Source of the DNA: Datnioides undecimradiatus
Taxonomy: Eukaryota > Chordata > Actinopteri > Lobotiformes > Datnioididae
Length of the DNA stretch: 64,000 nucleotides
NCBI GenBank assembly: GCA_008933995.1
Contig: WARS01000090.1
Location: 3,274,425 to 3,338,424, forward strand
Direction of reading: 5' to 3'
Below, piece after piece: positions 1,071 to 56,600 of the stretch. The position numbers and the translations under genes are program-made. Position 1 is the stretch's first letter. Every line of letters begins with the position of its first letter. The notes beneath the pieces were generated by a model. That model saw nothing but the letters and a program-made list of their open reading frames with translations. It had not been told where the DNA came from and did not search any database.

Positions 1071-3287
1071 TTAACTCTGCTGCTCCGCGGTTGTTTTATC
1101 TCCCAGACGTCTGCTGAAGTCTAACATCAGCTGGTGTAGCAGTGCGCTGACGTTCCCTAACTGTTGCTGTCTGGTTTTCAGATTGCTCATGGTGGCACTC
1201 ATCGACGCCAGGACAGCTCTGCCATTGCTCTGATGGCCCTGAGTTACAGAGAGGTCCTCCCCCCACGCCTCCTGTAAACTCTCAAGCGAGGCCTTTACGC
1301 GCTGCTGGAGCAGGTGACTCTCCTGCCGGTATCTGTCTTTGTTGCCCCGGGCGCTGCCAACTGCCTCTGCCATCTGTTTGATACGGAGATGCAGCCTGCT
1401 GTTCTCCATGCCGACCTGCTCCAGTTTCACCCTGCTGTCGTAGATGCTCACCTCTGCGGCTCTCAGCTCTGAGGCCTGTTTGTCGAGTACGTCCACGTAA
1501 CCTTCTCGCATCTCCTGCAGCTTGGCCTTCATTTTCTCTCTGGGCTGGAGCAGAGAGCTGGTTTTCTTCTGCAGCACCTGAGTCGAGAGCTCCAGATCGC
1601 TCCTCTTCCTCTGCAGCTCAGAGGTCAGCGTCTTCAGCCTCTGGTGCCTGGATTGCTCTTCACTCCACATTTCCTCCACCTCCTTCAGCATCTGCTCTTT
1701 CTCATCCAGCTCTCTCTGCTTCTCCTCGTTGCTCCTCTCAATGCTCTCAATCTCTGCGGTGCATTGCTCTATGTCCTGACAGTGTTCCACCTCTTTTTGC
1801 CTGTACTCCTCCTCACAATGCGCGATGTGGCTCACTAGCAAGTCAGCATTGGCGCTCTTGGGCTGCCGCTGCTGGAGTGCAGCCTCCTCTCGTCGAAGCT
1901 CCTGGTACCTGCTCCTGGTGCTGCTGATGTCAGACGTCATTTTTGCCACGTGCTCCTCCTGCTTCCTCTTCGCCTCCTCTAGGAGCCCCATTAGCCGCCT
2001 CTTCTCCTCCTCAAGCTGGCTGATGTTCCTCTTCTCTGTGTCCACATTACCGCACATCTCCTCCTGGTTCCTCTCAAACACGCGCTTGTTGATTGTGTCT
2101 GCCTGCAGGAGCTCTGTGATCTGCTTGTCCATCTCTTTTATCTCCTTGCTGTGTTTGACTATGGAGGCAATGCGCTCCTCCAGCTGGAGCTTGGATCGCT
2201 CCAGCTGCTGGGAGACTCTGAAATGCTCTGCCCTTACTTCTTTCTCTTCATCGTGCTGGAGCTTGAACACCTCATAGATTTGAGCCAGGGAGTCTTGACA
2301 GAGCAACCTGGATGCTCGACCCTCCTCTATTTTACCATCCACTGTATCAATTTCCTCTTTGAGGTGCTGGATGGCAACGCTGAAGGCCTCTCTTAACTCG
2401 CGGAGCTCTGCCTTTAGCGTTTCTCTCTGCTGCCTCAATTCTTGATGCTTACGGTTCTCCTCCTCCAGCTGTTTCTCGTACTGGCACCGAGACGCCATCA
2501 GTCTTCGTAAGCTGCCCTCCAACTTGGCCAGCTGAATCATGAGCTCACCCAGATGGCCATGGGTTTCTCGCTTCTTCCCATTAACTGAGTCCAACTCTCT
2601 TCTGCTCCTTTTGATCGCTTGTTTCTGCTGCTTGATGTTTCCTTCAGCCTGGTCCGCCTCTCTGGACAGGTTGTCTTGTTTTACGGTGAATGCCTCTCTC
2701 TCCAGCGCCATGTTTTGCTGCAGGGTTATTTTATCCTGCCTGACAGCAGCTGTGCAAGACTTCAGCTCCTCTATCTTCTCCCACGTGTGATCCAGCTGCA
2801 TCTGCAAGCCATACTTACAGGTGATTCGGTCATTCAGTGCAGCAACAACCTCTTCGTGTTCAGCCTTTACTTGGTCTCGCTCTGGGTACAGTGCTTCGTT
2901 TTGGCTCAGCAGGGCCTCCTGCCGCTTCACAGTGGCTCCTTGTAGCTGAGTTACAGCGTTGAGGTCTTTGCGCAGCTGCTCTATCTCCTCGGCATTGGAT
3001 GCTCGGGCTGCTGCAACATCAGCCATGATTTCCTGGCTTATTCTTTCCCTTATATTGTTAATTTGGTGTCTTAACTTACTGTTTTCTATGGTCTCCACTT
3101 CTAACTGTTCATGAGCAGCCCGGCGGTCTGCCTCCAGCTCGGTGATGGCAGCAGTTATCTCTGTCAGATGGAGGCTGGCTTCAGGTGAGAATGGTACTCC
3201 GTCCTCTTTCAGCTGCTTGTCTAGTTCCTTTAAATGCTCGAGAGCCACCATGACAGCCGGGAAGTCGGGGACCAGGCAGGAAGCCAT
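1071..3287 (-). CDS. Coiled-coil protein, CCDC175-like, single exon
   Basis: An uninterrupted 738-codon frame starts with MASCLVPDF and ends just before two polyadenylation signals. After a short N-terminal segment almost the whole protein is charged heptad sequence rich in E, K, Q, R and L, typical of a long alpha-helical coiled coil. No enzyme motif, signal peptide or membrane segment is visible. The N-terminal blocks ITELEADRR and ETIENSKLR, and the overall length, resemble vertebrate CCDC175 as I remember it; this is a family guess rather than an alignment. Human CCDC175 has many exons, so an intronless copy suggests either a retrogene or lineage-specific intron loss. The sense ORF is far longer than any of the antisense frames inside it, which are shadows. 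The start is the first ATG of the frame, in the context GCCATGG on its own strand side. Function unknown. Confidence 0.75.
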   Translation of the reverse strand: MASCLVPDFPAVMVALEHLKELDKQLKEDGVPFSPEASLHLTEITAAITELEADRRAAHEQLEVETIENSKLRHQINNIRERISQEIMADVAAARASNAEEIEQLRKDLNAVTQLQGATVKRQEALLSQNEALYPERDQVKAEHEEVVAALNDRITCKYGLQMQLDHTWEKIEELKSCTAAVRQDKITLQQNMALEREAFTVKQDNLSREADQAEGNIKQQKQAIKRSRRELDSVNGKKRETHGHLGELMIQLAKLEGSLRRLMASRCQYEKQLEEENRKHQELRQQRETLKAELRELREAFSVAIQHLKEEIDTVDGKIEEGRASRLLCQDSLAQIYEVFKLQHDEEKEVRAEHFRVSQQLERSKLQLEERIASIVKHSKEIKEMDKQITELLQADTINKRVFERNQEEMCGNVDTEKRNISQLEEEKRRLMGLLEEAKRKQEEHVAKMTSDISSTRSRYQELRREEAALQQRQPKSANADLLVSHIAHCEEEYRQKEVEHCQDIEQCTAEIESIERSNEEKQRELDEKEQMLKEVEEMWSEEQSRHQRLKTLTSELQRKRSDLELSTQVLQKKTSSLLQPREKMKAKLQEMREGYVDVLDKQASELRAAEVSIYDSRVKLEQVGMENSRLHLRIKQMAEAVGSARGNKDRYRQESHLLQQRVKASLESLQEAWGEDLSVTQGHQSNGRAVLASMSATMSNLKTRQQQLGNVSALLHQLMLDFSRRLGDKTTAEQQS

Positions 3288-4670
3288 TTTTTAATCCGCG
3301 TGTGTGTGTTTTGGGTTGAGTTTCCGCGTGTTATTGCGCTCAAGGCGTGTTTGTTTGAAGTTCAGTCAGTTTCCATCATCTGGTGACTTGTGAGTGGGGT
3401 CACCATGGCAACACGTGCCCCACCACGAAGAAGACAGCGTGCTACGGTAAGTCATGGAGGACAATATGTTGTTAGCGGCGGCTAACTATGAGCTAACCGC
3501 TAGTGCGCCAGACGAAGCAGGTGCTTTCACTACAATTAAACAAAATGACAGCAAGAAACCAAGCTAAAGGTAAATGTAGATAAACAAACAAGTCAGGTAA
3601 GGTTCGCGTTTTACTGGTGAAAGTACGCGTGCTTCCAAGGGCAAAGCTTGATGCGACTTCAGTCCCGAAATATAAAACTTAAAAATCATTTTTAAATCTC
3701 ATTCGCAGCGGGTCTAGTGCTTACCTGTAAAAACAACCGAGCAGATACACGAACAACCTCAGCCTCCCAAAATGTGTTTATGAGCTGAAAACAGAGGTCA
3801 GCATCACAGCAAACGCCAAGCTGTGAGCGGCACTAAGGGGTTACGCGGAGCTCCGGTGTTGCCAGATTTGAAGATTTTACGTAAATCGGTCACGAGTGGG
3901 AGAGCGTAGGATTAGCGCGAGATGCTGGTCCATGCTTTCACATGAAGGAATATCTGGTGCAGTGTGTATTATTTATAGGCTTAAGAGTTTAGTCAAAGGT
4001 TTCAGCTTTGGGAAATGTGACACAGTATTTTGATAAATCAAACCCTCTGTAGTTGCGCTTTTCACATACAGCGTACCTCTGCAATTCTGTTTTGATAAAT
4101 GTTCCTATCCCGGAAAGAGGAACCAATCCCAGAAACATCATGAATATTTAGAAGGCATCAGCAGAAAGAGACGACAGCATCCAGGTTTGCATAGCAGCAT
4201 GATGTTTTACTGAAGTTGCTGGTGTGAATCCGTTCAAAAAATATAATCAAAATACATAAACGAACATGTGTTTAAAAACTTTCAGACCATTAAAAAAAAA
4301 ATAAAAAAAAAATAAAGTTAATCCCAAATTATTTTAAATAGTTTGGGCTAAAGGTATATTTTGGACATTTAAAACAGAAATCTGGGTGCAATGTGTATAA
4401 TATTTGGTCTTAAAAGTTTTACAGGTCCATTAATAACGGGATGTGGCAACCCTGATCCTGTGGTGTTGTTTGTCCACAAATAAAGAGGTAGAAAGCACAG
4501 AAACAGAGCACATAGAAGGTGCAAGCAAGGATGGGATTTGAAAGAATTGGTGAGATGGGCGAGGAGAGGTGGTCGATTTCTTAATAGCATATGTTTAATA
4601 AAATGTAGTATGTTTAATTTTCTGATACGTTTATTTTAGATTAGGAGTGTAAATTGAATCGTGTTTCACA
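3288..4670. other. Intergenic spacer between divergent genes
   Basis: About 1.4 kb separates the minus-strand coiled-coil gene from the plus-strand fusion gene. It must contain both promoters. I see no TATA box with a clear position, no RNA gene and no conserved coding frame. A-rich tracts lie at 4290-4315. Small minus-strand frames at 4369-4950 have no family features. Confidence 0.5.
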
Positions 4671-4801: not shown

Positions 4802-7800
4802 ATGGATCTTGTCAGTAAACCAAGAAGCAAGTCTCTCGTGTGGTTGTATTTCGGCTTGAAAGCAGATGAAAGGGGACAACCTTTGAACTCTGGCGAGGCC
4901 ATTTGTCGTTTATGCCGAAAGATAGTGCTTGCAAAAGGTGGAAATACCACGAATTTAAGAAGTCACCTGAGACGTCGACATCGTGCAGATTTTTTCGAGA
5001 CCACTTCTTCCACGACCTCTGGAGCTTTGTTTGAGGCTCAAGGTGATTTGCCGTCAAAATACAGGGCATCAGTGTGGGTGTTGTAAAGTTGCATTACAAC
5101 GGAGACCAGTTAAAGGTGAAAAATGAGTCCCTGACCCTGCTGTTTATGCATTTGCACACTTTTTTGTTAATTTATTACATGCACTTAGTGTTGCAACTAT
5201 TTTATATTGCAATAACAGACTGATGTAAGTGTATGTAGTGTGGCACACACATGAATGCAACAACTGGTGTGTAGGCTAAGTAATCAAAAACCAATTAGTA
5301 ACACTTAAGAGTCTGAAGTATCACACGTTTTTTAGTCAAATAGTGGCTTTTTCCTTAAACAGTATTTTATATAATGTCATGACTTTTTATAAATAATTAG
5401 GGGTGTGACTTTAACGCGTTAAAAAAAAAAATTAAAAAAAAAAATTAACGCGTTTAATCGCCCTTTTTTTTTCCAAACAACGCGGAACGTTTGTCAGTGC
5501 ACGATTTCCCGGTACACCGATTACACTGATGCACACGTCTTAGCTCGGCTAACGGCTACCAAAATGGAGGAATCGGGTGAAAGCGCGTTGCAAGGACTGC
5601 TGCAAGGCAAATTTTATTTCAAAAAACGACCTGATGGAAGCATTAACAAAAGTGTGGTTTTGTGCAAATTGTGCAAAAAAGAGTTTGCATACCACCGAAG
5701 CACTTCAACCCTGCGGTACCATCTAAATGCAAAGCATTTTGGAGAAACCGCCGGAGCTGTTAGCGCTAGCAGTCCCGGTCCGAGTAAGAACAAGAGGTGT
5801 CGGCAGCCCAAACTCGATCAAATGACTGGCTTCAGGACCAAAATTAGTAAGTGTTGCAGCCTAATGTACAAAATAATTTGTGCTAAGGGTACTTGGAGTT
5901 TAAAGGAGATTTAAGCCTGTCAAACGACCATTTATATTTCTAGTTGTTTCACCAGAAGAAGAAAGAAGTAGAAATTGCACTTTATGTTGAGTTGTTGTTG
6001 TTGTTGTTTTTTTTACCATTTAAAGTCAATACTGTTCTGAAAAAGTACTTTAAGTACTTAAAGTGGCTCTTTAACTTTAGGCCAGGGATATTTTCCATTT
6101 CTTTTTCTACTGTTTTGACTTGAAATGCAATTAAATGCATTTTTCCAGACATTAAAAGAGCTTGAGTTTACAATATTCATGTCTGTGTCTATAATTTGAT
6201 TCAGTCATCCACTAAAATCCTTTTAAATTAAAAAATGCTGCTTTTGGGGCAAACATTGTTGTGCGATTAAAATGCGATTAATTAATTACAAAGCTTCTAA
6301 TTAATTTGATTAATTTTGTTAATCGAGTCCCACCCCTATTTCAAATATAATGTGTTATTTCATGTCTTGTCATTGTCCCACTGGTATGCTACGTCGTGAA
6401 TTACAGTTTTGCGGTTGGTGTAATGAATGGCCATTTGGAGCCGCCATCTTTAGCGTTTTAAAATCCCCATTTCCTCACATCGGCTGAGCCGTCTCCGCAA
6501 TACGGGCCGATAGTAGGCTTGTTCGAGATGAGCCAGGCCTGCGCAGAATCGATCACGCACACACCCTTCTACATATATAATTATAATCAGGCCTGCAGCG
6601 CTGATCAGCCAGAGAAATTCCTGATATATTACTGTTGTGAAGGGGCCGAGAGCCTTGGTTGTTACAGGACTGAAGTCTCTTCATATCTTTGACTAAAATA
6701 AACTGATGATGTCATTGTTGTTGTTTTCTCCAGGAGACTCTGTAAACAGCTGTGAGAACGTTTCGGCTGTTGATTCAGTTCCTCCGTTTCTTTGGTTTAA
6801 GGTCCTGTGATTTTAAAATGACAGCGCTGCGGTCTGCAGGTCAAGGTGCATCATAAAGACCAATATAAATCTCAGTATACATCTATGGTGCAGACGGATC
6901 TGACAGGATGTAAACACCTTTGTGACTTCCTGTAGCCTATTTTCTGTGAAGGTTGCTGAAAACTGTCCGACTCGACTGCAGCTTGTTGTCGCCGCCCCCT
7001 GCTGCCGCCGCCTGGTCTCGTCCACTTTCCAGACAAGGCGCAGTTCATCTCAAACAAGCCATATAGCTCCGCAACCTGACCACTTCAGCGGTATCACTCA
7101 CATCATTTTGCTATTTTATCACAAAGCACAGCTGATTGAGCCACCGGCTGACATTATTAATGCACACGTAGGGGATTCAAGGGAAAACCTGAATTTGTTT
7201 GAACCTGACGTGAAAACTAAGAAGGATGTAGTTCTGAAGGATGAGGGTGAATCTCAAGAGGGGGGAGAGTGTGAGGTAAACGCCACAGAGATTTCTAGAC
7301 ATGCGCTGGTGTCAGACCTGGAACTGGATGAGCTTGAAGACTGCAGGACGGAAACGAGTAAGGTTACAAAGAAGCAGACGACGTGGGCTGTGAATTGCTT
7401 TATTGGCTGCTTGGAGTCCCAGGGGCTCCGGACCGTGGACCTGACCACTGTGGAGAAGACTGAGCTGAATGGGTCGTAAGCAGCAGAGGGAGATATTGCC
7501 TGAGAAGGTTTCAGCTGGCCCAGCAGGTCTGCCACCAGTCGAGTGGGCACCCGCTAGCAGATGTTCATGTTCTTTCACCACTGCTGCAATGGATCTTAGT
7601 AATCACAGTCTGCAGAATGAACAAATGGGATAACTGGATAAAAGTTGCTAAGGAAACACACGTTTCTTGGAAATGAATGAATGAAAAACTAAAATCTTTT
7701 GTCTTTGTTATATAAATAACTAAAATGTAACTTGCCGTCTGTTTACTGCATTGTAATATGTTTAAGTTCTTGTGTTGTGTTGTTGTTTTAAGGCTGTCAT

Positions 7801-10800
7801 CTCCATTTTTTGGCTAAAACTGCACAGAAAAAAGTTTTTTCCTCCTTTCTCACCTTAGTTAACTGATATTTGGCTAATTACCTGCTTTATTGCCTCTCCA
7901 GGTCTGGATTTAAACCATGACGAGTTCTTCGAGGACGTTCCATGTCTGCAGGCTGCTTCAAACCAGAACTATGTCCCAGACGCTGCGTTGCCACCCGGAG
8001 AGCCTTGGGTCCATGGCGGCCCCTCCCGGGCTGTGCTGTCCCTGCCTTCCTGCTTGTGCCTGTGCAGGGATGTTGGGTCGGGACTGTCTGGTTCTGGGTC
8101 ATCTGGTGAAGATCAGATGGCAGACATGAGGGTGTACGCCAAGTGTCAGCTTCAGCAGGGAGTCATGTTTGGGCCATTTGTAGGAGAAGTGTGCAGAGGA
8201 CAAATGCTAATGAATTTCAAATATGCCTGGGCTGTAAGTAGACATTTTAAACAGATATAGATTCACCTTTAAATCCATTCATGGCTAAAATGGTGCTATT
8301 TGCACTGTAGTCACATCTAAAACCTAAAATCTGTGATGTAATTTTTGACTTGTGTAGATAACAACAAGGAATTACATATAGACATTGCTCCCTTCTCCAG
8401 ATCAGGGATGATGCTGCTTTTGTCTACGTCGATGCCTCTGATGAAAACAAATCTAACTGGATGAGGTGGGCAGTTCTTACTCTTAAAGTACACCTCTGTC
8501 TCCGTTCTCCTTTACTTTGCATCACAGCATTTGTTTGACCCGAGATTGCCTCTTGCTTTCCCAGTCACAGTTGCACGCTGTGCACATTTTCTCTTTGTTA
8601 AAGGTATGTAACGTATACCAGCAGCGAGGAGGAGCACAACCTGATTGTCTTCCAGTTTTACAGTCACATCTACTACAGGGTCTCCCAGCCCATCACAGAA
8701 GGAACAGAGCTAAGGGTCTGGATTGGCAAAGACTATGCCACCCTGCTGGGCCTGGGGAAGGGTGAGTTTATTCAATAAAGCATGGAATGGCAGCGTAGAT
8801 CTGTATTGATTTCTCAAAATAAATTAGTTTGTCAACACCTTATGCATTTATTTTTGATGGCAGGTGAAAGTGTGAAATGCGAAGTTGGAGACAAGGAGAC
8901 GGTTTTGCGCCTCCTCCAGGACATCCAGTTGGTCACCCTCCCAGAGCCCAGCAGCTCTTCCTTTTGGTCAGACCACAGCCAATCACAGAGCCCCATGCTG
9001 ATAATCAGCGATGTGACGACAATGTCAAACACAGACACCGGGAGTGATTCAGGCACGATTTCTGGCTCTGCCTTCCCCTCTTCCTCCCTGAACTCCTTCC
9101 TGTCTCCCAGCTCTCAGTCATTCGAAAAGTACGATTTCATGCCCGGGACCGAGAAACTGCTGAGTAATCCGAACGCCACCCAGCACAGCCCGTGGTACTT
9201 TTTTGGGTTTGAGCCAGACCCAACCGGCCGTCCCCTGGACCGGAGCGTGGTGATTTGTAAACTGTGTGGGGAACATGTGGGCTGTGGAGGAGGCGCGGCG
9301 GATCTGCAAAATCACCTGACCAACAAGCACCACATTAAATCCCGTGACAGTAACAAGGATCGGAGTCTTCTGACAATAGGTAACTATTACAGTCCACTGC
9401 CTGCCCGCCTTGCACAATAAACAATCAGTATCCCAAAATGTTAAAATGCATATCTACAGATATATTCTATATATATTTATATTCGAAAAATGCATCAGCA
9501 AACTGTTGCAGCTAAGTTGCTGATTGGAAAATTTCTTCTTTTACACAAAAGGTCAACAGCGCACACAGCCAGTGATGATTAATAGTGGTCTGTTCAGTAC
9601 GCTCCCCCTGGTACTGTCAGCTCATGTGACAGATGCCATCGCCAACTTTCTCATCATGGATCTCCAGCCTCCAGCTCTGGTAGACGGGGAAGGGTTCAAA
9701 CAGTTAATCCACACCCTCCTGCCCTCCTACAAGGAGCTGCCGACGCCATGTCAGCTCGAGAACCTGCTGAAGGAGCACCACACCAAAGGCAAGGCGAGCC
9801 TGGCTCAAAAGCTGAGGAGGCACATGGGAAGCGGAGAAAACGAGGAGATGCTGGATTACACGGCTCCAATTGAGCCCAGGAAACGTGGGCGACCTCCCAG
9901 CCATCCGAGGGAAGTCCCCCACTTTGTTACTTTAAGTGTGGATGTATGGTTCCACAACTGGCAGAGCAACACCGAGAGGTACCTCACCCTCTGGGCACAT
10001 TACATAGACTGTAATTTTAATTTTCAGAACCTGGCCCTGGCAACCCAAAGACTGACAGAGAGCCAGGAGAAAGACTACAGCCTCGGAGCAATCGAGGCAC
10101 AAGTGAAATCGATGGCCCAGGAGTGGGGTATCTCACAGCCTAATTTAGTGTTGCTGGGTGGGGAGGGAAGGAACACGTTGAATCTGAGGCCAATAAAGAG
10201 CGAGAAAGGCGGAGAGGCTTCAGGAAGCGTTCCTCACCCAAACTCTACAACGTTTCTTGAGAAGGATGACTCTGCGTCACTGGAGGAACAACATGGCTCC
10301 GAGCACAGCCACTCCAGTGATGGACCACCGTCGGTGCCATGTTTCTTCAGCACTGTGCAAGGCTGCATCGAGGAAGTGATGTTGCACCCCGTCATCTCCA
10401 AGACCCTCAGTCAGTTCCAGGGTATTGTCTCAACCCTGTTCCTGCCGCTGGCTCAAAACAAAAGCTGCCATCAACACCACACCCAGAGTCTGCTGCAGAC
10501 CCCGACAAAACTGGAGCAGTCAGAGCTAAAGTCATGGGCGCATAGTCGACCAATGTGGAATAAGCTGTACCCTCTCCTGAGCATAGTCCTTAAACATAAA
10601 AGCCTCTTCTGTGAAATGATAAAAGAGATTAAAGGTGATGGCTTGGCTAAAGAGGACACTCCCTCAGAATCAAGCTCATCAAGCAGCTGCCACGCAAACT
10701 CCACCTCCAACACATCCTCAACGCGCATCACAACACTGCGGCCTGAATGGAAGGTCCTGGAGGATCTGTGTCTGGTCCTCAAACCTTTGGACGTGGCGTG

Positions 10801-12631
10801 TCGAACTCTCGCCAAGGAAGCTTTCCCTCGCCTGTCCCTCATCAAACCCATTCTCACTGGCCTGCTCTCTCGACACCTTGTGCCTCGGCCTGGAGATTCA
10901 TCCTCCACCCTGAAGGAGGTGAAGAGGATGATGAGGCGGAACCTGGCGAGTTGCTATGACAACCCCGTCGTCAACAGGGCTCTGTGCGTGGCATGTTCCC
11001 TCGACCCCCAGTTTCATGGGCTGAGGTTCATGGAGGAGAAGGTGAGTCATGAGGTTAAAAAGCTGCTGCTGCTGCTGCTGCTGCTGTTACTGTTGCTGTG
11101 CCTTTCAGATTCTCTCTTTCTGCAGAGCTTGTCTCTTGTCATTGTCACTGTCTCATTGTATTGTTGAGTATAATTATGGAAAAAGTAAGATCAGAGTCTG
11201 TTATTCATCAACATTTCTGTGTTTGAGAGCTTAGCTCACACAGTATTTCTAAACAGTTAATGCTGAGTCCAGGAACAGTAAAAGTAAAGTAGTTAGTCAG
11301 TGATGGCCTTGGAGATAACACTGATTTACTAAGCTGGTTAGACAGAAATGCAAATGATTGCATCTTGCATTAGAGCAGACAAACACACAGTTCCTTTCCG
11401 TTCCTCACGCCTTCGGTCTTGTGTATTTAGCTTTGATGAGGCTAGAAATGCTGGTACTGTTGATGATTGCTGCTCAATGGGACTGATTGAGTAAATGGTT
11501 GTAATTAGTTTGTTTTGTTTGTTTTTAGGTGGCTAAAATACATTTTACTGCTGACCCCATCCCCAGCAGCACATTGCTTTACCTCGTTTATCAGTTTTCC
11601 GGTTCCTTCTCCTCCAAATCTCGGGCGTGCCTACCACCATTATTACTGTCAGCAGTAGACTGTGGATAAATACCTCATACAGCCCCACTTCTAAAGCAAG
11701 GCCAGACACATTTTGGGAGTGGTGGGGTTCACTTGTTTCAGACATATTAATGATTAATATGTACTGCTTTGCTGCTTCTTTCCGTTTCTGGTGCTAAAAT
11801 GCTCATCTGTAATTGTCAAGGACTCTTTAGGTAGCCTTCTTAGTCTGTAGTACAAAAACCCGACTTACCTCAATAACCCAGAATCACAGGTCATAGTTAT
11901 AATAATGTCTGAGGAAACAAAGGCGTAATGTTTGTGTTGTGTTCATTTTCAAGGAGCAGGCAGCCACGTTTGATTGGCTGAAGAAAGAGGCCGTCAGGAT
12001 CGTGAAGGAGGACAGGAGGAGAAGCCAAGGCAAGAAGCAAAGCCAGAGCAAGAGAAGCCCCTCGCCTGCATCACCAGAGTCTGAGAGTGACTTGCTGCGG
12101 AGGAGCAAGCGCTTAAAAGAGTCCCGCCCGATCAACTTCAGGGAGCTTGAGGATGAGGATGAAGCGAGTGATGCAGGGGAAGCTGATGAGAGCGAGGCGG
12201 CGGATCCTGGGTCTCAAGGCAGCCTCTCTGGTATGGAGTTCCTCCTGGGAGACTTGTTCTGCTCTGCCCCCAGGAGCAGGCAGAGCTCCGTAGAGGAGTC
12301 CATAGACATGGAGATGTCTGTCTTCAGAGCTGACAGGGGGACCTCTCTCGGGGTGGAGCCGCTGCAGTGGTGGAGGACAAAGGCAGTGCAGTTTCCGCTG
12401 TTGGCCACGGTGGCACGAGCCTACCTGGCTGCCCCGGCAGTGGCGGGTAACGCTGCGCTGGACTTCATGCAGGAAGGAACCGGAGCCTCGTACAGGAAGA
12501 GAGCGAATATTCCACCAGAGGGTTTGGACTCCATCTTGTTTCTGCACCACAACCACATGCCCACCACTGACAGCGGGCAAACGGCAGTAAGGAGTTATGA
12601 CAGGAACAGTGGGATTGAAAAGACCCCATAA
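4802..12631 (+). CDS. BED - PR/SET - BED - hAT transposase fusion gene, 8 exons, 1236 aa
   Basis: Exons: 4802-5042, 7127-7357, 7902-8233, 8401-8465, 8604-8761, 8864-9379, 9552-11041, 11954-12631. All junctions are GT/AG and phases match throughout (3711 nt including stop). Residues 14-60 form a BED zinc finger (C35, C38, H55, H60). An acidic linker follows. Residues about 195-340 form a PR/SET domain of the PRDM7/9/11 type, with GPFVGEV, NWMRYV and TELRVWIGKDY. Residues about 450-500 are a second BED finger (C474, C477, H493, H498/H499). From about 516 on it is a hAT transposase-like region ending in a C-terminal dimerisation segment (EPLQWW, FPLLATVARAYLAAP, LFLHHN). An RKRGRPP AT-hook-like motif lies before the hAT core. 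PR domains bind or modify chromatin, BED fingers bind DNA and the hAT tail dimerises, so a nuclear regulator is inferred. The first hAT acidic residue survives (SVDVW, about D645), but the second Asp position reads GGEGR and the usual SERxFS-type motif is lost, so transposition activity is unlikely. I do not recognise a named orthologue. Confidence 0.85.
5398..6338 (+). mobile_element. hAT-like element with BED exon, in intron 1 of the fusion gene
   Basis: The 5' end TAGGGGTGTGACT and the reverse complement of the 3' end, TAGGGGTGGGACT, are inverted repeats differing at one position. The inner sequence next to them (AACGCGTTAA on the left, AATCGAGTCCCACCCC on the right) is typical of fish ZBED-type hAT elements. 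The element is 941 bp and encodes only a first transposase exon, so it is non-autonomous or internally deleted. I could not see a convincing 8-bp target-site duplication, which suggests age or an imprecise boundary. Confidence 0.65.
5564..5846 (+). CDS. BED zinc-finger exon of the intronic hAT element
   Basis: An ATG in good context (AAAATGG) opens 94 codons plus one base before a strong donor, GTAAGTG, at 5847. The product has a BED finger: CKLC, then YHLNAKH, preceded by a YFKKRPDG aromatic segment, and a basic tail NKRCRQPK. This is the N-terminal DNA-binding part of a ZBED/hAT transposase. The rest of the transposase is absent from the element. The donor leaves phase 1, the same phase as the host gene's own BED exon (ends 5042) and as the exon 2 acceptor (7127). 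It could therefore act as an alternative first exon of the host gene. No transcript evidence is available here. Confidence 0.6.
7358..7479 (+). other. Crypton/KIAA1958-like (DUF3504-type) coding remnant behind the exon 2 donor
   Basis: The exon 2 frame stays open past the donor at 7358 and encodes KKQTTWAVNCF, then LRTVDLTTVEKTELNG, before TAA at 7477-7479. This matches the start of the Crypton-derived domain found in ZMYM2/3/4, QRICH1 and KIAA1958-type proteins (TKxxTxWAxxxF ... eeLN), from memory of the family. The expected continuation (LRxFYxE) is missing. If intron 2 were retained, the product would be BED plus this extension, 197 residues. A weaker donor at 7476 would leave the wrong phase for exon 3. 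Confidence 0.55.
11062..11086 (+). repeat. (GCT)n microsatellite at start of intron 7
   Basis: About eight perfect GCT units start 20 bases after the GTGAGT donor of the long hAT exon of the fusion gene, followed by imperfect units. Confidence 0.9.
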
Positions 12632-38500: not shown

Positions 38501-41500
38501 CTTAGATTGAGTCTGGAGGGACTTGAAAGTGTGCTGTACGAAATGCAAAAAACAAAAACTGGTTAATCTCGCCTCCGTCCTCCCTTCTTTTGCGCTTTAA
38601 GGTAAAGAAAGTAGTGAAGACCACCACCACTCGCACGGTCATTCCCTCTGTGTCAGACACACTTTCCCTGGATGGTGGGGGTTCAGTGACGGGTATGGGG
38701 GGCTACCCTGCACCCATGGGCTACAGGCAGGCACCTGGACTCGCCGTGCCCATGGACTACCCCACAAACACTGTGCCCCGCAACTACCACTACGGGCCTC
38801 CAGGCTACGACGACTATCGCACCGGACCCCCATCTGAGACCTACGCAAGCCTTAACAGGGGAGCGCGCATGGATGATCGTTACAGGTCCGGTGACTTTTC
38901 AAATTCATGTTTGTTTCATGTTGGCACTGCTCATTTTCGGTTCAAGCCTTACCCTCAGTCCCTACCCTTTCTAGACCGGTCCATCCAGACGGTTACAGAA
39001 CTCTGGATCCAAACTACAGAGCCCACAGCAGGAACCAGCTGGACCCCTATGCTGCTCAGCCACAGGTATGTTGCTCTGATGTTATATGATATATTATCTG
39101 ATGATAGTCAGATTGTAACTGGGTCTGTTTCAAAGCTCACTTCCAGACTATATATTCAAAACTGAATGTAATGAATTCTTATGGGGCTGACCTCTGCTCA
39201 GGTTGGGCGTATGGGAAGTGCCATGGAGCTATCCTCCATCCCAAGGTTTGTCCCAGAGCCGTACGGTCTGGAGGATGATCAGCGCAGCATGGGTTACGAT
39301 GAGCCCGACTATGGCATGGGACACCCAGTGCACTACAGCACCGTGCCCCGCAACCACCATGCATTCCCCCCTGGGCTCCCACGCAGGACTGGGTAAGTTG
39401 TGTGTTTTTCGTAGTAACTAATCTGTTTTAGGGATACATAGTGCCTGGATGCCTGCTCTGTGTGTATGCAGTCACACATGTTCTTCTCCTCCCTCCCCAG
39501 GAGTTACGAGGGCACATTGGACGGTGACATGAGCGGTCCAGGGGACATGTACTATTGGGGCGGAGGGGCACCACTGGCCCAGGGTGAAAGAGGTAGCATG
39601 GCTTCGCTGGACAGCACCCTAAGGAAAGGTCCTGGCCCTGGAGGGTGGCGTCAACCAGAGCTGCCAGAGGTCATCGCCATGCTCAACTACAGGCTGGACC
39701 CCGTCAAGAGCAACGCAGCTGCGTACCTGCAGCATCTCACCTATAAGAACGATAAAGTAAGAGTTCCTTATGTGCATGAGAGCCCGGTATTCAGTGTAAC
39801 CAGGAGAAAACATAAATTAAAAGCAAGTGAGTGCTGAATTCACAGAAAGCACAAAGAAATACAGGAAGGCCATTTAAATCTTGGCAGACAATGTGTGTTT
39901 TTATTGAGCTGGAACGTTTTGTTAACTCGACCTGTAGGTTATAATCAGCATGGCAAGAACCTGTGACTTTTATGCTCGCGTTAAACAGACCGGTCGACCG
40001 ACCGCGATCATAATTCCACTTAAGCTCTTTCAGACAAGACAAATGTGTCAGTGTTGGCAAAAGGAACGAGAGGGAACAGGCAGCGTTGCTTTGTGCAGTT
40101 CTACTAAGAACGGAAAGCAAGAAGGCAAAATACTAATATGGAGACGCAGATGGCAGGAGGTTGCAAACAATATGTTGTTTGTTCTGTACCAGTGTTCAGT
40201 TTTAAATGACACCAGACTCAAGATGACCTTTCCACCAAAACATCAAAATGACCACTCTGATAATATAAAAACACGCGGCTTCATCACAGTTTATAATGAA
40301 TCTTCTGACAGCAGCCATGCGTGACCGTGGAACTGCTCAAACTTTCTGACATGCAGTCATTCAGTCGGCCACTCGGGCGCCTGGAGCCTCCTCAAACTGC
40401 ACGAAAACCAATCTGGCTGCAGTTCAGCCCGAAACCAAAAATTAGTCAGGGGTGTCCAATCTGGGGCCGAAATCCTGATTTAATATGTGCAGAGTCTGCC
40501 CGACTCGACGTCATATATGGCGATCCATAACATGAGCTGCAGCTGTCTGCGCGGTTTTTGATGCTCGCAGTTGTTGACATAGCAACATTTGACGTGCGAA
40601 GCAGAAAAGAGAGAGGGAGAGAGAGAGAGTATTTACGTTTGTTTTGATTTTACCTTTAAAAAGTGCATATAGTATATTTTAGTTAATGGATTATAGATTT
40701 TTACGGATCACTGAGGGTCTTCCAGCTTGTTATCCTGTGTCCCCTGCTTTGCTTTGTTTCCTTGATGCTCTGATTTATTTATTTTTAGCATCATTGTATC
40801 TTTGACTGGTCCTTATTTGACACCCCAGTCCACATCACAGCTCATTCCCCTTTACTTTCCAGGTGAAGTCTGATGTGCGTCGTCTGAAAGGCATCCCGGC
40901 ACTGGTCTCTATGCTCGACAACCCAAACAAAGAGGTCAGTTTGCTTACTTTTCTCCGCGGCTTTCTGTTCCTTCTTTACCTTACTTGACGTGCGTTATGA
41001 TCCGACTAGGTGGGGTAGAACTGAGGCTTAAGGGATGAAGTGTGTTTTTTTGTGTAATACCGGGACAGTTTGTCGGCCTGAGACAAGGTGAACTTGAGAC
41101 TCACAACTAATACCGAATGAAAGGGAAATAAAAATAAGCATTACGTATTTGACTTCACCTCAAATCCTGTAGGTCAACATTTGCGCTAAATATGGTTTCG
41201 GCCAAAACAGTCGGTGGTTTTTCTGCGACTCCCTTTCATTTAGCGCAAGCTGTGGCAAAGTTTTGCTGATGTTTGTACGGGCATTACCAGACAAACCACA
41301 TCATGCATTCCACTCTCGGGGCAAAGAGGCATCTTAATTTCACATTTCATGCTCTGCGGCCCGGTGACAAGTTTGAAGTCTGGTGTGTGCCGGATGACTT
41401 GCTGGCTGGACAAGTGGGTCAAACAGCGACTGCATCCTCTTAACGCTTTCAAGCGGTTCCAAAAGCTCCACGCACTTCTTGCGTGTGCGTGTGTGTGTGT

Positions 41501-53656: not shown

Positions 53657-56600
53657 ATGCAGAGATACTGGTGGCCAGGTTATGAGATTCAGCTTCTTGA
53701 GGAGCTGCAGAGACAACAGCACAATGCCCAGTTCTGTGATACCCTGTTGCAAACCGAGGGTAAGCCGTGTTGCTGATTGCAGTATCAAAATAAAGTACCG
53801 TCGTTGCATATTTATTGTTTAAAATTGAAGGGAAATTAAAAAAGAAATTTTCTCTGACAATTTTTAAGGTATCTCAGTCCCAACCCACAGCTGCATCCTC
53901 GCAGCTCTCAGTCCCTACCTGTCACAGAGGCTGTCAGCCTCCCGGTCTCCTCCACTGGGTCAGAAGCGCCAGCTACAGCTCCAGGCTGTGAAGGCCCAGA
54001 CCCTGCTGAAGATTGTTGGTCTTCTGTACTCTGGGGTGCTGGAGGTGAAAGGAAGCATAGAACAAGATGACGTGCTGTCTGCAGCTCGCCAGTTTGGGAT
54101 CACAGACCTTGTTGAAGGACATAAAGATTGGGGGATGAATGAGGGAGAACTGCAGGAAAAGAGATTTGAAAGTGTCAGAGAGAAGGACGACAAATGCAAA
54201 GAGAGAACTGAAAGGAGAAAAATGCAGGATGCACAAGTTCAGGCCGAGATGGTGGGAAGGAGAGCTACAGATTGTCCATCTGAAAAGAGAAGCTGTGTAT
54301 CCACAGGCACACAGACGGGCAAAGCTGGTGAAAAGGAAGCGGGCAGTTCGTTCCCTCACTCCAGCCAAACTAAGCCTCTATCCCAAGAGCCAGCCTCGTC
54401 TGTAGCTGAAAGCTTCAATTTTTCTGTCACGTGGCAACCTCAAAACTTCACACTTCATAAAGATATTTACTCCACCTGTTTTCCACCCAGTGCCAGCATA
54501 CCCAGTGGTGTGCCTAGCGATGGAGAGTCAACGTTAGACCAGTCTTCTGACAGTATTACAGACCCCACATCAACTTCTGCGTGGCCCAGTGATGTGATGA
54601 ACTTCCCCATTTCCCTTAATGACAGCTCTAACCAGCAGTCTTTTGAGTCTGGGGACAAGACTGGGACGGGAATTGAGGATGAACAAACAAATACCAAGAG
54701 ACGTGACAACAGAGAAAACGCAGAACAGTCAAATCACGCCAGCAGAGCTGAGACACCAGGCGAGGGAAGCGAAAACTTTACAGAGAAGAAGCATGCGCAT
54801 GCAAAAGTAGGGATGAAGAGCCTGGCTAAGATGAAAGAGCTGATGCAGACACAGATTTCTATAAAGGTAGGCAGATGTTGTTAAATGTTCCAGTAGAAAA
54901 TAACCTGAAATGTGTTTATTTCATAGTCGCACATGGACGTAAACCAACAAATCTGAATCAGGTGAGACAGAGGTTTAGAGGTGAGGATACTGACCATGAA
55001 CTGCAGCATCCTCACCTTTGTTCTCGGATCCTGTCACATCTCTCTCTCCCTGTCTTTCTTTCAATTCCTGTTAGTTCTCTATTTACGTAAAAAAAACAAA
55101 ACAAAATATTGTACAGTAGGAGAAAAAGCTGCAGAATCTCCGTCTACCTTTGGGACAGCAATCAGAGTCAGGCTTTGAGGCTGCTGTGAGCGTTTTACTG
55201 GAGTCTTGTCACACGGCATTCTGGGAATCGCATCCAGTTCAATCATTTTGTGACGTTTCTATTTTCTTTTAGTACCCAAGGCTGTCGAATGATTAAAGAT
55301 CATATTTCTGCTTTGCAGCCCGCCCGCTGTGGTGTATGGTTCATTTTCAACCAAGAAAATCTCTCAGGGCATCACAATCACTCAACTGCTGTTGCTTAAC
55401 ATTTTGAGTCATGTCTCCTTCCCCCCCCCCCCCCCCCCCGGCTGTTAAAATGACTTGTCACCTGTATTTTTCACATGCGGAGAAACAAGAAAGGAAATAA
55501 AAGTTTTGGGGATTTAGTGTCATAAGAGGATTGTCACATGTCTCATCTGTGATGCGTTTGTGATGTCGTCAGGCTGTCGCACCAGCCGTGGTGGAAACCC
55601 ACTCGTTTTTATTCTTTGCGTCCTCATTGTCTGCAGCTTTTCTTCCGTCTGTGCAGGTGAAGCTGAGGAGGAGGACCAAAGGAGAAGTGTGGGAGGTCGT
55701 GAGCGTGCAAGACACAGATGAGAGGTTGTCAGTCCTTAACTCCCTGAAACAGGTAGATAAGTAAGATGACGTCTTTATAAACAGACATGCTTGTCATCCA
55801 CTTCACTTAGATTTTGACTGGGTGTTCTGATGTGTTGGGAAAATGAATATAGTGCAGTTAGAATCACGTAATCCGCCAGGGGCCTTAAATACTCCAGTAA
55901 TTTGTCTTGGTGATGTGTGGCAGTGCAGAGATAGACTGTGATTTCACAGTATTTAGTGAGCGATGATACAGCAAAAGCAAGTCATCACATTTTATATAAA
56001 GGGAGTAACTAAAGTAATAAAAGTAATGCATGACCTCCTTTTTCTCATTAAATGCATCAAAGAAAAACACACGTAGTTAAATAGAAGACGCTGCCCTTGA
56101 TACTAAACTTTGCTTTTGTTTTCTGTGTATTACAACAATACAAATACAATCAGCAGTCCTCATAAATATAATGAATGCCTCTGCATGTAGCAGTGTTTGT
56201 GAAGGTGAAAAGAAAAAGATGCAGCAGGGAGAAAAAGAATAATGCCATAGGCGAATCTATTGCGCAACACACACGGGGCTCCAAAACCCCTGGATGTTGC
56301 TTTGAGGAAGTCCGTGTGGAGCTGATGCACATCATGGGGAGGCGGTGCAGGGGAGAGCGGTGCAGGTTGGTCTGACTGAAGTTTTGGTGAGTTGCTCGGG
56401 CCGTGTGATGCAAACGTTAGGTAAAAACTTGCCGCAGACTGCCAGAGCTGCTGCCCCGAGGCTTGATGGACGGCAGGTCTGTTTCATCATCCGCGCCCAG
56501 TCTCCACCTGAGATCAGCAGCACCAGAGACATGCCAATAACTGTCAGTCAGAAAAGTTTGCCATCGCCAAACAAGCTCGTTCCAAACATGCCTGTTCAGA

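Follow-up and report, generated by a model that had tools for sequence, protein, structure and literature searches.

A probable domesticated fusion of a PRDM-type PR domain with a BED-hAT transposase in Datnioides undecimradiatus

Fusions between host domains and transposases, as well as the hAT-derived ZBED genes, are known kinds of genes. A tetrapod survey of host-transposase fusion genes has reportedly been made by Cosby and others in 2021, and SETMAR, where a SET domain is joined to a mariner transposase, shows that vertebrates also have a transposase linked to a domain of the methyltransferase type. An excerpt of PMC2200798 includes a zebrafish setmar entry described as SET and mariner transposase. 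The gene presented here is located in a stretch of 64,000 nucleotides (the window) of the Datnioides undecimradiatus genome (assembly GCA_008933995.1, contig WARS01000090.1, positions 3,274,425 to 3,338,424, forward strand), where it spans 7.8 kb and joins a BED finger, a PRDM-type PR domain, a second BED finger and a hAT transposase-like region. As far as could be found, a PRDM-hAT fusion is undescribed: the open PubMed Central literature, which leaves subscription papers mostly outside, yielded no description of a PR-BED-hAT gene or of a PRDM-type PR-hAT fusion, in agreement with the preliminary description of this DNA, which knew of no gene with this order. The account proposed here, to which a probability of roughly 0.7 is given, is that of a seven-exon domesticated fusion gene whose product would be a non-transposing, DNA-binding regulator of transcription or chromatin.

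The preliminary description had joined eight exons into one frame. When they were rebuilt, they gave exactly 1236 residues with no internal stops and GT-AG at all seven introns, so the open frame, its length and its splice sites were reproduced. Domains were called as Pfam matches (with a threshold of 0.01 where homologues were scanned), and the three kinds named earlier were all found in the 1236-residue model: two stretches of zf-BED (whole-protein value 4.2e-14), PRDM2_PR at residues 229-339 (3.4e-34) and Dimer_Tnp_hAT at residues 1144-1211 (7.5e-5). The dimerisation tail is intact. No C2H2 zinc-finger array is among the Pfam matches of the window protein, and NCBIfam, a prokaryote library, gave no match in the two homologues scanned. 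Homologues match every one of the eight exons except exon 2, and the direct joining of exon 1 to exon 3 leaves an open frame of 1159 residues with no stop. Hence, the best-supported product has seven exons and 1159 residues, and the proposed 1236 residues are not retained. In the 581 Mb assembly used for the own-genome comparisons, exon 1 has a single place at 100% identity (the other 29 matches are at most 47% identical) and the PR exons form one set (other PR matches are at most 42% identical). The coordinates are collected in Table 1. Just 3' of the exon 7 donor there is a GCT/CTG trinucleotide run (window 11060-11090), in which read-through would encode a leucine run.

Table 1. Exons and transposon-derived features of the locus (window positions).
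Feature	Position	Strand	Content	Support
Exon 1	4802-5042	+	ATG and first BED finger (80 codons plus one base); phase 1 at its 3' end	zf-BED
hAT-type repeat in intron 1	5395-6341	+ (gene strand)	Imperfect terminal inverted repeats 5395-5410/6326-6341, 16 nt, 88%	
BED frame in the repeat, possible alternative first exon	5564-5846	+	ATG at 5564	zf-BED 3.9e-8
Proposed exon 2 (excluded from the corrected model)	7127-7357	+	77 residues; mostly within the DUF3504 remnant	
DUF3504 alternative-first-exon remnant (Crypton tyrosine-recombinase-derived)	7135 to ~7528	+	End is the donor position inferred from homologues	
Exon 3	7902-8233	+	Linker and first part of PR domain; entered in phase 1	Pfam and homologues
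Exon 4	8401-8465	+	PR domain	Homologues
Exon 5	8604-8761	+	Last part of PR domain; phase 1 at its 3' end	
Exon 6	8864-9379	+	Linker plus divergent second BED finger; phase 1 at both ends (symmetrical)	
Exon 7	9552-11041	+	Main part of hAT transposase-like region	
Exon 8	11954-12631	+	C-terminal hAT region, dimerisation domain, stop codon	Dimer_Tnp_hAT

The chimera is real and very probably a single gene, and it would be transcribed as one mRNA in this species. A protein search returned 126 homologues, and all counts out of 120 refer to the 120 listed; the searches with the whole protein and with the hAT region scored about 8000 candidates each. Six segments of the window protein were mapped onto the listed homologues, and the order first BED, PR, second BED and hAT was found in 76 of them, or 77 with P0002, which has all four parts plus DUF3504. 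PR, second BED and hAT are present without the first BED in 21 homologues, and in 12 others this arrangement comes with a match to the exon-2 segment. PR and hAT without a matched second BED were found in four, and seven are single cases (P0002 among them). Moreover, P0046, P0048, P0055, P0080, P0091, P0092 and P0098 have all four parts in order on contigs 3.8-4.9 kb long, which are most simply explained as spliced transcripts since the gene spans a longer distance here. It could be argued that separate BED, PR and hAT genes were merged by the earlier description and by gene predictors, considering the introns of up to 2.9 kb, the mostly automated predictions and the different N-termini of some of them (P0021, P0045). 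However, the order is repeated in 77 of the 120, the exon 1-exon 3 junction in 58 of 79, the whole order stands on short contigs, and the PR-BED-hAT order is present in lungfish, lizard and eel, which makes such an artefact extremely improbable. The homologues are mostly named uncharacterised, hypothetical or 'E3 SUMO-protein ligase ZBED1-like', and the gene is easily overlooked because the last name conceals the PR domain. All the species-named homologues of the whole-protein search are teleosts; no zebrafish, herring, shark, frog, bird or mammal names are among the matches listed, but many of these are nameless and this is not evidence of absence.

Concerning exon 2, the earlier claim that it belongs to the frame was not borne out. 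The 77 residues are not present between the first BED and PR in any of the 79 homologues having both; 58 of them show the exon 1-exon 3 junction with zero residues between, and the remaining 21 are slightly offset there, match only in part or contain a different insert. The segment is the start of a DUF3504-encoding exon in homologues about 1450-1480 residues long, such as P0001, from Siniperca. P0002, from Seriola, a predicted protein of 1532 residues joining first BED, DUF3504, PR, second BED and hAT, matches it over 26 residues that belong to a far longer DUF3504 exon. DUF3504, which derives from Crypton tyrosine recombinases according to an excerpt of PMC3212892, was identified in P0001, P0002 and P0019, and its Pfam family PF12012 in 16 of the 120, N-terminal in those inspected. 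In the window, the equivalents of P0001 codons 1-112 (7135-7473) adjoin those of codons 386-404 (from 7475), so that about 273 codons are gone, including the whole Pfam-matched region (200-331); the frame is shifted and meets a TAA at 7477-7479. Other percomorphs keep this module that is decayed here, and the loss looks recent because the remaining 5' part is stop-free, although an assembly error could also produce the deletion. Proposed exon 2 was therefore rejected as a coding exon, being the start of a gutted DUF3504 exon. The exact eight-exon product might still be made through a new donor within the decayed exon, as its open frame and GT-AG sites would allow, but this is very improbable: none of the 79 homologues has the exon in that place, the segment opens the coding part of a different exon, whose donor is placed by homologues at about 7528, and the acceptor at 7126 is without support in any homologue. 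As a separate observation, there are four own-genome matches to the DUF3504 first exon outside the locus, and the best-scoring one (L029, C312:844187-845161) contains a 566-codon open frame with 33% identity to it.

The first BED finger has a structure match to ZBED1 (1.3e-8) and is present in 80 of the 120 homologues with 49-95% identity, which is at least 82% in 41 of them. The second of the two fingers claimed earlier is found only at the Pfam cut-off and is, by its sequence, a divergent BED in the window; its zinc ligands are retained in 57 of the 57 homologues having residues there, and the second BED of a salmonid homologue gives 1.4e-8. Regarding its origin, the first BED is 46-48% identical to BEDs of repeats in this genome, and a tree groups it with resident hAT repeats, apart from the second BED (93/93; long branches, about 60 residues). 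This grouping suggests that the first BED was captured separately. A duplication of the second BED was also considered as its source and is disfavoured by the same tree. The genome contains near-identical BED frames of a multicopy hAT repeat (L002, L003, L004, L005 and L007), and these are the nearest own-genome relatives found of the exon-1 BED.

The likeness between the first BED (46-48% and 93/93, as above) and repeats still in the genome might also indicate a genome-defence or transposon-surveillance factor, in which the dead hAT protein and its BED fingers would bind residual hAT ends and silence or block them. Furthermore, the N-terminal finger varies by lineage and could track changing transposons. 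Nevertheless, that likeness equally follows from origin alone, percomorphs show good conservation of the PR and hAT parts and no fast change in them, and the binding is putative, so such a function seems quite improbable.

In the hAT region, both the RNase H-like fold and the C-terminal dimerisation domain are present. The catalytic residues of the Hermes transposase are D180, D248 and E572; the equivalents of D248 and E572 are conserved in 0 of 60 proteins, and that of D180 is D in 52 and E in 8. With the DDE triad broken and exon 1 and the PR exons single-copy, the locus does not have the features of an active hAT transposon, and the transposase is dead, two of its three catalytic residues being lost.

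The solved structures nearest to the PR part of the window protein are PRDM9 (5.9e-22) and PRDM11 (7.4e-18), and the PR fold is kept according to VIA-align on an AlphaFold model, a comparison that hardly tests the BED parts and linkers. PRDM11 was rejected as the identity of the gene, as the homologues form a separate family beside PRDM9/11. PRDM9 presents the catalytic tyrosine set Y276/Y341/Y357, which is not complete in the window protein. The Tyr341 equivalent is Y in 123 of the 123 proteins mapped, the Tyr357 equivalent is I, V or M in all 123 and never Y, and the residue aligned by hand with Tyr276 is F in the window, within FGPF, and Y in some homologues such as P0087, P0098 and P0170. 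P0087 is from the medaka Oryzias latipes. A zinc knuckle precedes the PR domain in the eel protein P0170, and Pfam does not recognise it in the window protein, where the BED exon and a linker are found instead. The PR domain could be an active histone lysine methyltransferase steered to DNA by the BED fingers, as in PRDM9, considering that PRDM9 is its closest solved relative, that the fold and the Tyr341 equivalent are kept, and that, in an excerpt of PMC5519329, PRDM7 retains H3K4 activity despite its Tyr357 change. However, the Tyr357 equivalent is never Y, the Tyr276 equivalent is F in the window although it is Y in some homologues, and an excerpt of a paper using these residues deems such changes unlikely to preserve the human PRDM9 mechanism; methyltransferase activity is hence doubtful. 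The 'chromatin-type' PR domain of the preliminary description was confirmed as a PR domain, but the term may mean binding rather than methylation because the Tyr357 equivalent and two transposase catalytic residues are lost.

Concerning the age of the fusion, the PR part was searched against proteins of about 255-812 residues, with 63 candidates scored, and this revealed PR, BED and hAT dimerisation parts in Varanus komodoensis (P0122) and Protopterus annectens (P0123), and the hAT search revealed the PR-BED-hAT order in P0170 from the eel Synaphobranchus kaupii. No N-terminal BED was seen in these three proteins. The eel knuckle and PR domain match PRDM9 (3.1e-41) and PRDM11 (9.6e-36) far ahead of PRDM12 (2.6e-14). 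A tree of 23 PR rows unites the 15 members of the family in a single group (99/96), where eel and euteleosts stand together, apart from lizard and lungfish (90/87), and the family is placed with PRDM9/11 and not with PRDM1/12/14 (89/86; several long branches). These relatives suggest that the fusion is very old, with a predicted PR-BED-hAT core common to eel, lungfish and lizard, and the simplest account would be a single fusion that preceded the divergence of ray-finned from lobe-finned fishes. The N-terminal BED is probably a later addition, since it is found in salmonid, pike, smelt, cod and spiny-rayed homologues. The PRDM-hAT fusion appears to span bony vertebrates and, if this is true, a relative of PRDM9/11 would long ago have swapped its zinc-finger array for transposon DNA-binding parts in this way.

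The exons encoding PR (3-5) and the second BED (6) are each a symmetrical phase-1 block whose skipping leaves the window frame open. Among the homologues, P0082 is without the second BED exon, and P0119 and P0127 are without the PR part. In P0118, P0129 and P0139, of the pipefish family, a Myb/SANT domain stands instead of first BED, PR and second BED on the same hAT body (P0118 shares 75% identity with the first of the other two over 91 residues and 63% with the second over 100 residues), and P0045, from Monopterus, has a Tc5-type helix-turn-helix N-terminus. A second type of BED is found at the N-terminus of the pipefish proteins P0103, P0106 and P0112, of P0127 and of a wrasse isoform X3 (P0063), and isoform X4 of the same wrasse (P0039) begins with the usual BED. 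All these alternative N-termini are automated predictions except P0127.

The hAT-type repeat in intron 1 has a BED frame with 44-53% identity to this second type of BED, and it is a repeat with 39 other copies of 86-90% identity (40 scored of 279 own-genome candidates). The frame has two donors, GTAAGT after 5846 and GTAAGA after 5783, both in phase 1, and with exon 3 onwards it would give an open product of 1173 residues. The intron-1 copy has the sole complete stop-free 96-residue frame among 150 scored own-genome matches (288 candidates); for 35 of the other 39 copies, the main match begins at base 300 or later, and about 89 bases within the BED frame are missing or unmatched. This hAT BED may already be used as a further alternative first exon, but its intact frame points to this only faintly: chance can explain it, as a young copy may stay open by chance and a phase-1 donor has a chance of 1/3. 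As a tentative idea, the phase-1 first-exon slot could have been repeatedly filled by transposon DNA-binding modules (the hAT BED of exon 1, DUF3504, the second hAT BED type, Myb/SANT and the Tc5-type helix-turn-helix), with the gene retargeting an ancient PR-hAT body by swapping promoters and heads. Since phase-1 modules are added, skipped and replaced between lineages, the gene offers a testable case of transposons re-supplying DNA-binding heads.

The domesticated fusion gene proposed here is based on the observed gene structure, homologues, folds, catalytic-residue loss and retained zinc ligands. A PR domain of the PRDM9/PRDM11 type, initially with a zinc knuckle as in the eel, would have joined a BED-hAT transposase in an early bony vertebrate; the transposase would have lost two of three catalytic residues and persisted as a protein that binds DNA and self-associates. 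A second hAT BED, apparently captured separately, would have become the first exon in the ancestors of salmon, pike, smelt, cod and spiny-rayed fishes. In the present protein, the BED fingers would bind DNA, the hAT tail would dimerise or multimerise, and the PR domain would provide a surface where chromatin or corepressor proteins dock and would not act as a PRDM9-like methyltransferase, so that the whole protein would act as a sequence-specific transcription or chromatin regulator. The transposon-derived regulator suggested earlier is plausible, given the dead transposase, the kept zinc ligands and the dimerisation domain.

Several points weigh against this account. Most homologues are automated gene predictions, and 43 of the 120 lack at least one of the four parts, so there is no single fixed architecture; the seven short-contig ('lgn') proteins are taken to come from transcripts because of the length of their contigs. 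The second BED scanned alone gives 4.6e-4 and 20.6 bits against a Pfam cut-off of 20.6, and it is without a Pfam listing at 0.01 in P0001, P0021 and P0045. In the lizard and lungfish predictions the PR domain is missing its first half, and the eel hAT tail reaches 20.8 bits against a cut-off of 21.4. The AlphaFold model has a mean pLDDT of 65 and a pTM of 0.51, so any arrangement of the domains read from it would be tentative. Selection on the gene is suggested by conserved intact frames and residues. By analogy with PRDM7 in the excerpt of PMC5519329, Tyr357 loss does not prove methyltransferase loss. For any member of the family, DNA binding, dimerisation, a regulatory role and the direction of its effect are what we infer.

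Other features were seen in the window. A single open frame of 739 codons (1071-3290, minus strand) encodes a coiled-coil-rich protein with no Pfam match, presumably CCDC175-like. A BTB/POZ domain exon is located at 53868-54884 (5.7e-8), which we assume to be perhaps BTBD18-like, and near 39442-39837 there is what we take to be a delta-catenin-like exon, with no Pfam match.

Compared with the known systems, SETMAR differs from the present gene in both SET class and transposase superfamily. The hAT transposase Hermes differs in that the present family has lost D248 and E572 and has a fused PR domain and an extra BED. With the PRDM family the PR domain is shared, but the window protein has BED and hAT parts and no C2H2 array; according to an excerpt of PMC2082429, C2H2 repeats are absent in that family only in PRDM11. 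PRDM9 and PRDM11 are the nearest relatives, but the PRDM9 Tyr357 equivalent is replaced here in all 123 proteins. The Crypton-derived DUF3504 genes (KCTD1, KIAA1958, ZMYM2-4, QRICH1) share PF12012 with the 16 homologues mentioned above, and alternative DUF3504 exons are also described for KIAA1958 in the excerpt of PMC3212892; here, DUF3504 is joined to a PR-BED-hAT protein and its exon is destroyed in the window. Finally, the ZBED genes, which are domesticated hAT genes, likewise have BED finger(s), the hAT catalytic fold and the dimerisation tail, and a BED with four zinc ligands, as in ZBED proteins, is present in this gene. Several BEDs are also found in ZBED4, ZBED6 and ZBEDX, and the DDE triad is conserved across domesticated ZBEDs, as reported in an excerpt of PMC3606216, whereas the present family is without D248 and E572 in 60 of 60 proteins and has a PR domain fused in front.

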